The position numbers were made by a program, and so were the translations under genes. 64,000 nt of DNA. Source: Halichondria panicea (Eukaryota > Porifera > Demospongiae > Suberitida > Halichondriidae). The notes under the pieces were generated by a model. It was not told the origin of the DNA. It did no database searches and saw only the letters and a program-made list of their open reading frames with translations. Numbering within the stretch: position 1 is the first letter of the stretch; each line of letters opens with the position of its first letter. Where the stretch lies: positions 7,842,339 to 7,906,338 of the forward strand of contig NC_087379.1 of assembly GCF_963675165.1 (NCBI RefSeq), written 5' to 3'. Shown here piece after piece: positions 11,666 through 62,340 of this stretch.

Positions 11666-14600
11666 ATGAACATACACAAAGCTGTCAGGGATGGTGACTT
11701 GAGTGCTTTACAAGATGCCATCAAGAGGGGAGAGGATGTCAACAGTGTGGATAGGGTAAGCTGGTTTGTGGGTATGTAGAGCTGAAGCTGTGAAAGTCTG
11801 TTTTTGCTAGCTGACATGCTAGAATTTACAATCTCTCTTGATTCCATGCTTTAGTCTTGTCTGCAATGTCTACCTCTCAAGGTCGTCGGTCACCATACAG
11901 TCTTTTTTAGGTTATATAAATATTAATATTATCAGTAATGAGGGAGCAAACCACTTCAGAACCATACTGTGGTGATATACAGAGACGAAAGATCAAATCG
12001 TACAGTTGGTCCACTGCATACTGAATGATTGCACTCAACACTAGAATAGCTGTGCGCTTAAGCGCCACCATAATATTTTGAGGTTATAAAAGTTGATTTG
12101 GGCGCTGTAAACTACGCTCACTGCACACTCAGTTTAGGGCAAATGGTAAATTCCAAAAATAAGTGTAACTATGATCTATCACACAGATGTGTTGTCAAAA
12201 GTTATTATTATGCTCTCACTCTTGTAGGTTGGGCGTACTCCACTCATGGAGGCAGCCAGGGGAGGTCACACAGACAGTGTTAGAGAGCTGCTCTCCTCAG
12301 GAGCCGTGGTGGACCTGGCTGACAAGGTGAGTATCTGATACTAAACTGATGGTCTATAGGAGTTATAATTATACATGGACATTGCCTTAAAATCACCTCT
12401 ATGCTGAATAATTGTTGACAAGCATTCCATGGAATTGATTGGGTTGACTATTATTTTGGTTTGTGCTACCGTCACTCAACTACGAGCTAACTTGCTGAAA
12501 GGTTAGAGTTAGTGTTATGTACTTTTGTGTGTGTGGATGGATGACGTCAGATGCAACCACTCTATTATAGTAAATATTGCCAATCCTTACTTTATTTGTA
12601 ATTACAGCACCAACTCTGACTGAATTCCATTATTTAAGTCCTCCAATGGTTGCTGTAATTAAAAGACGTAATTATTTGTGATGTCAGGCTCAAGGCAGTC
12701 GGCTTTTCTTTTATTATGCACATGCATTTGATTTGTAGAGCTGCTGTAAAATACAGAGACGAAAAATCAAACCGTACAGTTGGTCCACTGCATACTGAAA
12801 GATTGCACTCAACACTAGAATAGCTGTGCGCTTAAGCGCCACCATAATATTTTTGAGGTTATAAAAGTTGATTTAGGCGCTGTAAACTACGCTCACTGCA
12901 CACTCAGTTTGGGGCAAATGGTAAATTCCAAAAATAAGTGTAACTATGATCTATCACACAGATGTGTTGTCAAAAGTTATTATTATGCTCTCACTCTTGT
13001 AGAATGGGTGGACTCCACTCATGTGGGCAGCCTTGGGAGGTCACACTGACTGTATTAAAGAGCTGCTCTCCTCAGGAGCCGTGGTGGACCTGGCTAGCAA
13101 GGTGAGTATCTGATTGTGTTTATAGGCAGCATGTTTGTGACCATTAATTTTCATCATTTGGCAAATGAAATATTTGCGCATGTACTTACAATTATGCACA
13201 TTGCCTGTATTTTAATTGTTACGTTTTGCTTATAATTTTACGCTTATCTTGCTTATTTGTGTCTAAGTTGACAAACTGGGCTGCATACGTTTTCGTGGAT
13301 ATGTTGTACACAAATGAATAATTATGATACGTACGTAGCACTTAAAAGGTTGTACAGTTTAATAACATAGCTGGATAGTTGCATTTTTGCTCTTTGCCAA
13401 TCCCTTTCCTTTACTTTATTTATGGTCTATCGCACAGATGTGTTCTCAAAAGTTACTGTATGCTCTCACTCTTGTAGGGTGTCTGATTTGCTAAATTTTC
13501 TGTGACGTGCATACGTATATATACATGCAGTTGTAGGTGTACTGTACATCATTGTTAAGTACATGTACTGACAATCACATGCATGACTGTACATTTCCTT
13601 AGTGCTTTAAACTGATGTCCCAGTCATTTGTACCTTAACAGATATCCCCAACCTCTTAATATGCAATTACCGTTGCCAGTATTGCTCTGTCAGCAAATTA
13701 CATGTAATACGCATTAGACCACTTTACCTCTTACAATGTACGTCTCATCCCTTCATATGATCATCATCACAGCGTGGAAAGACTGCTCTGATGAAGGCCA
13801 AGAGATCAAAATACTCTAACCCTTCAATAATAAAGCTGCTGGAGGAAGCTGCTGAATCACATGTGAGTCCATACCTCAATAATGCACACACTGATCACGA
13901 GTGTTTTAGTTTACATAATTATGTACATGTTCATCAATGAAATAATGGCATCGTTTTCTTTTCGTTTACTTTGCCGATTTTTGATTATTTTCACTGATGA
14001 GCTCGTACTTTTCTTTGATACAGTAATACTGTCAGTGATGTAATTTAGTGGTCTTAACTGTATTACAGTTCCAATATTACACACACCCAAACAACATGAA
14101 TACCATTACATGTTCCTCCTCCCCCCCCCACACACACACACACACACACACACACACAACACACTCACACACACACACACACACACACACACACACAGTC
14201 ACGTCCGCAGTCTGTTCCAGTCCTCCCCAGGAACTGGACTGTTGTAACCGACACAGAAACGTGAGTGGCTATTGCACAGTTGAGTCACTAGCTTTATGAA
14301 TGTGAGTCAAAATAGGAAGAAGCCAGTCTACCAGAACAAGGCAGCAGGGGAAACCGTCTCAACACCACCTGGATGTAAGTGTGTGCTTGTGCTGTATCCA
14401 GCACATGATTCTGTGTGTTTACCTCCTGTGTAGATCCCCTGCACCAAACCTCCGCACACCCTGATGTCACTTTTTACGACAAGCCTCAAGAGAAGGAGTT
14501 CACCTCCAGTGGTGGTTATGCTGACTTTGATAATGGAGTTCACGTGACTGTTCCAGCTAATGCTGTCCCAGCAGGGACCTCTGTGGGCATTAAAGTCCAA

Positions 14601-60300: not shown

Positions 60301-62340
60301 CACTCATAATGGCAGCCAGTGAAGGTCACACAGACAGTGTTAGACAGCTGCTCTCCTCAGGAGCCGTGGTGGACCTGGCTAGCAAGGTGAGTATCTGATT
60401 GTGTTTATAGGCAGCATGTTTGTGACCATTAATTTTCATCATTTGGTAAATGAAATATTTGCGCATGTACTTACAATTATGCACATTGCCAGTATTTTAA
60501 TTGTTACGTTTTGCTTATAATTTTTACGCTTATCTTGCTTAATTATTTGTGTCTAAGTTGACGAACTAGGCTACATAATTTTACGCTTATCTTACTTATT
60601 TGTGGGCTACATACGTTTTCTTGGGTATGTTGTACACAAATGAATAATTATGATACGTACGTACGTAGCACTTAAAAAGGTTGTACAGTTTAAAAACATA
60701 GCACATCATTGGATAGTTGCATTTTTGCTCTTTGCCAATCCCTTTCCTTACTTTATTTATGGTCTATCGCACAGATGTGTTCTCAAAAGTTACCGTATGC
60801 TCTCACTCTTGTAGGATGGGTGGACTCCACTCTATTGGGCAGCCTATAAAGGGCACACTGATTGTGTTAGACAGCTGCTCTCCTCAGGAGCCGTGGTGGA
60901 CCTGGCTAACAAGGTGAGTATCTGATACTATGTCTATAGGCAACATGCTGGACATTACCCGAGGCCATGCCGCAGCTAGCGGGTATAGTAGTCGTCTGGT
61001 CTGTTTGTTTGTGTGTGACACAGTCTACTCCCCTGGATTCCATAGCACTGTGTTTACAGCATGGATAGCCTTCACACAAGTTATTAGTTTTCAGATTTTG
61101 ATGTTAAAGCTTCGTAAGCTTGGACTTACACGGCTATCTAGCTACACCTGGCCTTTATTTCGAGGTACGTATTTACAGCTAAAGTGATCCCGTACCAGGA
61201 ACAATGGAACAGGGTCACTAATTTAAAAGTACATGTAGAAAGCCTAGATATGATTGTGGTTGTTGTACGAGCTAGCTTGCTGAAAGGCTAGAGTTAGTGT
61301 TTGTACTTCCGTGCGTGGGTGGATGACGTCAGATGCAACCACTCTATTATAGTAAATATTGCCAATCCTTACTTTATTTGTAATTACAGCACCAACTCTG
61401 ACTGAATTCCATTACTTAAGTCCTCCAACGGTTGCTGTAATTAGAAAACGTAATTATTTGTAATGTCAGGCCCAAGGCAGTCGGCTTTTCTTTTATTATG
61501 CACATGCATTTGATTTGTAGAGTTGCTGTAAAATACAGAGACGAAAAATCAAACCGTACAGTTGGTCCACTGCATACTGAAAGATTGCACTCAACACTAG
61601 AATAGCTGTGGGCTTAGCGCCACCATAATATTTTTGAGGTTATAAAAGTTGATTTGGGCGCTGTAAACTACGCTCACTGCACACTCAGTTTGAAATGGTA
61701 AATTCCAAAAATAAGTATAACTATGATCTATCACACAGATGTGTTGTCAGAAGTTATTATTATGCTCTCACTCTTGTAGCGTGGGCAGACTCCACTCATG
61801 TCGGCAGCCAAGTATGGTCACGCTGACAGTGTTAGAGAGCTGCTCTCCTCAGGAGCCGTGGTGGACCTGGCTAGCAAGGTGAGTATCTGATTGTGTTTAT
61901 AGGCAGCATGTTTGTGACCATTAATTTTCATCATTTGGTAAATGAAATATTTGCGCATGTACTTACAATTATGCACATTGCCAGTATTTTAATTGTTACG
62001 TTTTGCTTATAATTTTTACGCTTATCTTGCTTATTTGTGTGCTACATACGTTTTCTTGGGTATGTTGTACACAAATGAATAATTATGATACGCAGCACTT
62101 AAAAAGGTTGTACAGTTTAATAACATAGCACATCATTGGATAGTTGCATTTTTGCTCTTTGCTAATCCCTTTCCTTACTTTATTTATGGTCTATTGCACA
62201 GATGTGTTCTCAAAAGTTACCGTATGCTCTTACTCTTGTAGTATGGGTGGACTCCACTCTATTGGGCAGCCAGTGAAGGTCACACTGACTGTATTAAAGA
62301 GCTGCTCTCCTCAGGAGCCGTGGTGGACCTGGCTAACAAG
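57386..62340 (+). CDS. Gene D: ankyrin-repeat protein, 5' part
   Basis: Exons: 57386-57490 (MADMDTDVVRAAKDGDLSAL), 58019-58117, 58799-58897, 59309-59407, 60288-60386, 60815-60913, 61780-61878, 62242-62340. All are phase 0 and the last seven are 99 bp, one 33-residue ankyrin repeat each (for example GWTPLYWAASEGHTDCIKEL). By homology with genes A-C, a ZU5 and CARD region should follow, but no such exon appears before the window ends. The gene is either continued beyond 64000 or truncated. The intron after 62340 has a local duplication of about 57 bp including a second, exon-like GACCTGGCTGACAA (62379-62392). Confidence 0.8.
58799..62340 (+). repeat. Two-exon ankyrin higher-order repeat of about 1.49 kb
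   Basis: Exon starts pair as 58799/59309, 60288/60815 and 61780/62242. Steps between pairs are 1489 and 1492 bp for the first members. Introns alternate between a short type (GATTGTGTTTATAGGCAGCA) and a long type (ending ATCTATCACACAGATGTG). Confidence 0.88.
59434..59762 (+). repeat. Intron block of about 325 bp repeated in gene D
   Basis: This block, starting GCAACATGCTGGACATTACC and ending GATTGTGGTTGTTG, recurs at 60940-61264 and 62422-62744. It has no matching copy in genes A-C, so it arrived in the D lineage and spread with the two-exon unit. Confidence 0.75.

Follow-up and report, generated by a model that had tools for sequence, protein, structure and literature searches.

A hybrid ankyrin-ZU5-CARD-like gene of the sponge Halichondria panicea within a larger, probably recombining array of ankyrin-exon cassettes

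The stretch analysed here, called the window, comprises 64,000 nucleotides of the Halichondria panicea (Porifera) assembly GCF_963675165.1 (contig NC_087379.1, hereafter C3, 7842339-7906338) and contains ankyrin-ZU5-CARD-like genes (A to D), together with SIX6OS1-like genes, Dishevelled genes and orphan exons coding for a Death domain. Coordinates follow the window numbering, negative values lying left of the window. The original prediction of two blocks corresponding gene for gene, with an offset near 24 kb, is confirmed by self-BLAST of the window, with 90-96% identity over long pieces: 11977-16419 is paired with 36239-40637 (95.0% identity), 16846-18638 with 40640-42465 (90.7%), 18691-28105 with 42750-52205 (96.0%), 28303-31978 with 52347-56030 (93.7%) and 32210-34242 with 56878-58910 (89.6%), the E value being printed as 0 for each pair and the offsets ranging from 23.8 to 24.7 kb. 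Both blocks contain, in the same order, an ankyrin/ZU5/CARD-like gene, a minus-strand SIX6OS1-like gene, Dishevelled, the orphan Death exon and the next ankyrin gene. The first window copy of this unit of about 24 kb, U3 (11977-36238, plus strand), starts between the cap exon and the first cassette exon of gene B, and the second, U4 (36239-62000, end approximate, plus strand), enters the cassette array of gene D at its right end.

Gene C (32714-41156, plus strand) is modelled with 16 exons coding for 832 residues and a stop, and is open from its ATG to this stop. It codes for a cap, six cassette ankyrin repeats, a further ankyrin exon, a borderline ZU5 segment, a helical region and a CARD-like domain (exon at 40857-41153), and the model contains a 53-bp intron. 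Its translation also shows a stretch resembling a decayed cassette at about 37.7-37.8 kb (near 37.75 kb), where gene D has an open cassette at 59309. When the 5' module of gene C (31000-33270) is aligned to B and D, 2257 of its 2271 bases match D (92.6% identity) versus 136/2271 for the 5' end of B, so that it is of D type; the 3' module (37420-40640) is of B type, 3218/3221 bases being aligned to B at 94.9% and 1813/3221 to D at 87.2%. Gene C thus has the D-like 5' end, and the B-like exons from about 37.4 kb, which had been attributed to it. The flank changes from D type to B type within the cassette (K) array at 33280-37388, made of units of about 786 bp whose 99-nt exons start at 33332, 34131, 34919, 35705, 36491 and 37277, and the junction is therefore inside the ankyrin array, as foreseen. 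The switch point is not narrowed further, because the cassettes on both sides are nearly identical. Unequal exchange is the natural cause of this geometry.

Gene B (11666-17357, plus strand) has a cap exon starting at ATG 11666, with a second in-frame ATG at 11627, cassette exons at 12228 and 13003, ZU5 exons and a CARD-like exon ending at 17357; its exons homologous to exons 8-16 of gene C are open and stop-free. The 5' part of gene D (57380-64000, plus strand) contains a cap exon and cassettes at 58019, 58799, 59309, 60288, 60815, 61780 and 62242, and the gene extends past the window. In three related genes, no stop interrupts the homologous 3' exons; for two of these genes, the projection covers exon 11 only in part. 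Gene A, left of the duplicated unit, has a CARD-like exon at 11144-11440 (plus strand), placed by its open reading frame and by paralogue alignment, its fold being taken from the alignment headed by 40857-41153. A tandem pair of about 950 bp, 92% alike, is also seen in gene A at 8890-10768.

The window shows a part of the duplication only. When the genome (131 Mb, 39 contigs) was searched, the SIX6OS1-like/Dishevelled block was found in five copies on C3, spanning about 300 kb (U1 at 7791756, U2 at 7817211, U3 at 7862338, U4 at 7886403 and U5 at 8070834), which rules out exactly two copies. The starts of units U1 (-58235), U2 (-33510), U3 (11977) and U4 (36239) each fall in the gap separating a cap exon from a cassette exon, or one cassette exon from another. 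The U1-U2 arrangement, 70 kb upstream, repeats that of U3-U4 and includes, between U1 and U2, a second hybrid gene of the same make-up, whose 5' end is aligned over all 2271 bases of the gene C module with 94.1% identity (gene D: 2257 bases, 92.6%); piecewise, D is nearer to gene C over the first approximately 400 bases, and the U2 gene thereafter.

A single unequal crossover between B and D, giving one 24-kb duplication and one hybrid gene with nothing further needed, had been proposed as the explanation of this arrangement. It accounts for the hybrid make-up of gene C and for the collinear blocks, and the U3-U4 pair is indeed lowest or tied lowest in divergence in three of the five blocks compared among U1, U3, U4 and U5. 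The same pair is, however, the most divergent in the last block, and U3-U4 divergence is uneven along the unit (6.1, 1.5, 1.4, 1.1 and 5.2%; chi-square p 4e-41). In a 13-kb alignment of these four copies, 43, 50 and 29 of the 122 informative sites support one or another of the three alternative topologies. Along the alignment these sites are arranged in 30 runs, whereas shuffled orders average 80, with none of 20000 as low. Other pairs are closer in coding sequence as well: U3-U4 is the most divergent of the six Dishevelled pairs (dS 0.083), and U2-U4 the closest of the ten SIX6OS1-like pairs (0.012). With five units, a second hybrid gene, uneven divergence and conflicting trees, one event is insufficient as the full history and is very unlikely to be all that happened, while the geometry and the unequal exchange that it invoked are retained. 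To judge from its sequence, the array is the product of repeated exchange or conversion and not of one crossover alone.

It could alternatively be argued that alternative haplotypes, retained in tandem by the assembly, inflate the number of copies, U1 and U2 being for example the other haplotype of U3 and U4. Much of the unit differs between copies by only about 1-2%, a divergence within the range of alleles in polymorphic animals. The contig nevertheless carries five copies, more than two haplotypes would supply, U1 and U3 are flanked on the left by different sequences, there is no N within the 264 kb examined, one block is up to 14% divergent, divergence among the copies is mosaic, and gene C and the U2 hybrid gene have no cassette surface in common. 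An assembly artefact of this kind is thus unlikely as a general explanation, a partial haplotype error accounting for some of the copies being possible.

Units U1 to U4 start in arrays of a regular element. Each cassette is a unit of about 786 bp with one phase-0 exon of exactly 99 nt, coding for one ankyrin repeat of 33 residues. A scan that required splice sites and agreement with at least 13 of the 33 residues of the consensus brought up 53 cassette exons over 314 kb, all of them free of stops. When the genome was searched with the cassette intron, 40 long matches (40 scored of 145 candidates) were 94-100% alike, on both strands, and all 40 map to the 7.48-8.24 Mb region of C3. The ankyrin assignment is supported by Pfam (PF12796, E 8.2e-67; PF00023 in six stretches of gene C). 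Over 36 cassettes of six genes, mean identity between repeats is 72-80%, with 74% for the repeats of gene C and 80% for those of the U5 array, the 21 framework positions being 95-100% identical.

The exons and the introns of these cassettes do not vary in the same way, as judged by counting methods rather than by a likelihood site model. In 23 hand-chosen array cassettes, the intron flanks are 1.6% divergent (0.5-2.9% within single arrays, about 0.5-3% overall). At 12 of the 33 codons, the proportion of nonsynonymous differences (pN) is 0.346 and that of synonymous differences (pS) 0.046, against a pN of 0.008 and a pS of 0.085 at the other 21 codons. Within gene C, the four inner cassettes vary at 8/678 intron sites versus 19/99 exon sites (Fisher 1.9e-12), 18 of these 19 exon sites falling in the 12 codons. 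Positions picked on distant cassettes (6 of the 53 being excluded as divergent terminal repeats) and applied to gene C give the same picture, with 67/216 bases differing versus 3/378. Two held-out arrays, for which 6/8 and 6/7 of the cassettes found were used, vary at 28/99 exon versus 39/654 intron sites and at 27/99 versus 16/652, respectively, with 19/28 and 19/27 of the exon changes in the pre-chosen codons. One of them is located about 360 kb upstream on the opposite strand (C3:7476300-7483300), and one of its cassettes is identical to the first cassette of gene C at the protein level. The effect is weaker in the U2 array, where whole-exon pN/pS is 1.3 and p is 0.07 for the DARPin subset of positions.

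These exon differences could be old, gene conversion having homogenised mainly the introns, without diversifying selection. Such a scenario would be consistent with the silent divergence of the framework (0.085), which is higher than that of the introns (0.016), and with the fourfold sites that vary in the U2 (3/18) and U5 (4/19) arrays. It fits poorly with the pN and pS values at the 12 codons, with the absence of variation at all 19 fourfold sites of gene C, with the coding of each amino acid, at the variable positions, by mostly a single codon, and with the concentration of variation at DARPin-library positions, and we consider it quite unlikely. Another possibility is that a targeted mutator, rather than selection, writes the variable codons, as change is confined to few codons in near-identical surroundings and, in the U2 and U5 arrays, is spread about evenly over the three codon positions. 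In gene C, however, changes are most frequent at codon positions 1 and 2 (10 and 6, against 3 at the third), between two and four bases are seen at the variable sites, and the ratio of transitions to transversions at the variable codons (0.69) is near that of the introns (0.89). No mutator signature was seen when the variable codons were compared with the introns, and a mutator is highly improbable.

The location of the 12 positions suggests what diversification could be for. They include all five positions varied in the DARPin library (hypergeometric 0.003), whose spacing fits cassette positions 33, 1, 3, 11 and 12; the register between the two numberings is anchored on the G-x-TPL motif, which we take to be equivalent in both. 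DARPins are also found among the PDB matches of the ankyrin repeats. In PMC10484509, the variable positions (45, 46, 48, 56 and 57) and their equivalents in further repeats line the concave face of the DARPin, and in PMC4986451, the positively selected ankyrin positions of fungal NLRs are on the concave face with one exception. By counts, the variable codons are under diversifying selection, and they fall on the binding face as placed by analogy with DARPins. A role in target binding would be the likeliest reading of these positions.

Downstream of the repeats, the ZU5 segment is borderline in Pfam, scoring 22.7 bits in a piece of gene A (cut-off 21), and 20.0 and 18.8 in gene C. The C-terminal domain is predicted to adopt a six-helix death fold, closest to CARDs in a fold listing from which missing families are not thereby excluded. 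As its pieces have no Pfam CARD match, it is referred to here as CARD-like, and the CARD label given earlier stands for the predicted fold and not for the sequence profile; a PDB sequence search gave no convincing match either. In the gene C pieces, Pfam detects neither NACHT/NB-ARC nor UPA/FIIND, and the helical region before the CARD-like domain has a sub-threshold Vinculin match. The wider ankyrin-ZU5-CARD-like gene family extends beyond C3. Copies of the ZU5 exon block are found on other contigs, four of them, 88-90% alike, on C6 (1.62-1.70 Mb). Nuclear-receptor DNA-binding domains gave three matches in the genome, all on C12, a low number of the kind known from sponges.

Our results lead us to propose, with a probability of roughly 0.7, that diversified ankyrin recognition arrays drive recombination and thereby copy their Dishevelled and SIX6OS1-like neighbours. 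The window is part of a large array of ankyrin-ZU5-CARD-like genes, the N-terminal halves of which are assembled from interchangeable cassettes of about 786 bp, each exon adding one ankyrin repeat. Their products would be receptors for recognition whose target-binding face has been diversified, with signalling by way of a CARD. The long, near-identical arrays would be prone to repeated non-allelic recombination, by unequal crossover and conversion. As the cassettes are phase 0, an exchange between cassette introns would yield an in-frame receptor such as the hybrid gene C, and an exchange between arrays of different genes would lead to gain or loss of the intervening stretch of about 24 kb. 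The SIX6OS1-like gene, now present five times, and Dishevelled, with a truncated copy besides four that are full or nearly so, would have been carried along as passengers, and their copies partly homogenised by later exchange. Gene C and the window duplication would then be one visible product of this larger recombining ankyrin-exon system. A bolder and doubtful extension, which we put forward tentatively, is that this early-branching animal possesses a germline library of single-repeat ankyrin cassettes, with the layout of a DARPin library and an output into CARD signalling. It would be the ankyrin equivalent of those immune or allorecognition repertoires that are based on repeats, its diversity arising by exchange of cassettes. 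Somatic rearrangement of the cassette arrays may also occur.

Proteins of the NLRP1/CARD8 type have a ZU5-UPA-CARD architecture. They resemble the present genes by the ZU5-like segment and by a CARD-like domain later on, but differ in that an N-terminal ankyrin array is present here, that Pfam finds no UPA/FIIND, and that the helical region with the sub-threshold Vinculin match precedes the CARD-like domain. Repeat receptors with hypervariable binding codons and a homogenised framework are already known in fungal NLRs. These proteins, with internally conserved WD, ANK or TPR repeats (PMC4986451; Podospora het-d/het-e, PMC12222747), resemble the cassettes in that their repeats are similar and hypervariability is limited to a small number of codons on the concave face, in a variation in repeat number together with a proposed concerted evolution by unequal crossover, and in a death or incompatibility output linked to the repeats, which we count as a likeness. 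In contrast, the present genes belong to an animal genome, every repeat is encoded by a separate exon of a cassette whose intron hardly differs from those of the others, and gene C has a ZU5 segment and a CARD-like domain instead of NACHT/NB-ARC. The mean identity of its family of repeats is also below the criterion of 85% over at least 100 residues given for high internal conservation in PMC4986451. DARPins, as presented in PMC10484509 and PMC8683736, have the same 33-residue ankyrin module with corresponding variable positions, but their library is artificial, whereas the cassettes are a natural, germline-encoded family and vary also at positions 7, 8, 17-20 and 32. Among titles and the beginnings of abstracts, preprints and most subscription papers being outside this scope, no such animal ankyrin family was found in the literature. 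If the proposal is true, a one-exon-per-repeat animal version would give a direct view of the diversification of a recognition surface, and would provide, for an early animal, testable candidates for receptors of immunity or of self/non-self distinction. As a by-product, Dishevelled, a core developmental gene, would have been drawn into copy-number change by unstable neighbours.

Dishevelled is present in U3 at 21319-30222 (plus strand; 14 exons, 615 residues and a stop, DIX-PDZ-DEP) and in U4 at 45347-54274 (plus strand; 14 exons without internal stop). Its label is confirmed by Pfam, with the three domains in order (PF00778, E 1.1e-26; PF00595, E 1.2e-18; PF00610, E 3.7e-18), and by its best PDB match, DVL-2 (8wm9, E 1.8e-129). 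The U1 copy, like those of U3 and U4, has 14 exons free of internal stops, and the U5 copy has 13 exons and a partial exon 14; that of U2 is truncated, exons 1-2 alone being matched (-23.8 to -22.0 kb), with an intron 1 hardly alignable to that of U3. The four copies look constrained, with nonsynonymous to synonymous ratios (dN/dS) of 0.01-0.14 in their six pairs, which suggests purifying selection. A genome-wide search with 450 Dishevelled residues gave 55 exon matches, those outside the array being five single PDZ- or DIX-like matches (two on C4, and one each on C7, C5 and C3), and genome searches for DIX and DEP revealed no further site at which the two domains lie near one another. On these sequence searches, the full Dishevelled genes recognisable in the genome are therefore in this array only. 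The DIX-PDZ-DEP architecture is that of sponge and other animal Dishevelled proteins. PMC3564985, PMC8235796 and PMC4818920 name one Amphimedon entry, one in the Halisarca transcriptome and 'Dvl or DvlA, B' for Porifera, and describe duplicated Dishevelled genes in nematodes, planarians and vertebrates; against the one or two genes named there for sponges, a single array contains here a fragment and four copies that are full or nearly so. A 29-bp minisatellite is found in a Dishevelled intron at 23534-24030 (about 17 copies) and 47571-48131 (about 19 copies).

The SIX6OS1-like gene of U3 (18116-20764, minus strand) consists of six exons (20707-20764, 20592-20648, 20413-20539, 20097-20365, 19658-19875 and 18825-19611) and an uncertain last exon at 18116-18498; that of U4 (41937-44830, upper end approximate, minus strand) is stop-free over exons 1-6. 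The uncertain last exon (41937-42325 in U4) contains two stops in U4 and U5, and none in U2 or U3. The spliced protein does match PF15676 (E 2.1e-5, profile positions 10-96 of 557), yet its 23.8 bits are below the cut-off of 27, which leaves the SIX6OS1 label a tentative one. An exon-wise genome search for SIX6OS1 gave no match, and neither did its controls. Over ten pairs, dN/dS is 0.21-0.38. The orphan Death exon is at 30635-30973 in U3 (plus strand), where its identity is borne out by PF00531 (E 1.1e-6), and the corresponding module of U4 is at 54662-55041 (plus strand).

Simple repeats are found elsewhere in the window. A (CA) run of 238 perfect units at 56263-56738, in the X region of U4, is far longer than its U3 counterpart and is a possible weak point of the assembly. 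A minisatellite with an 11-bp unit begins at 63304 and runs off the window end at 64000, reaching about 67.5 kb. Finally, the segment at about 28675-28860 is a dispersed repeat, with dozens of matches on many contigs (40 scored of 465 candidates).

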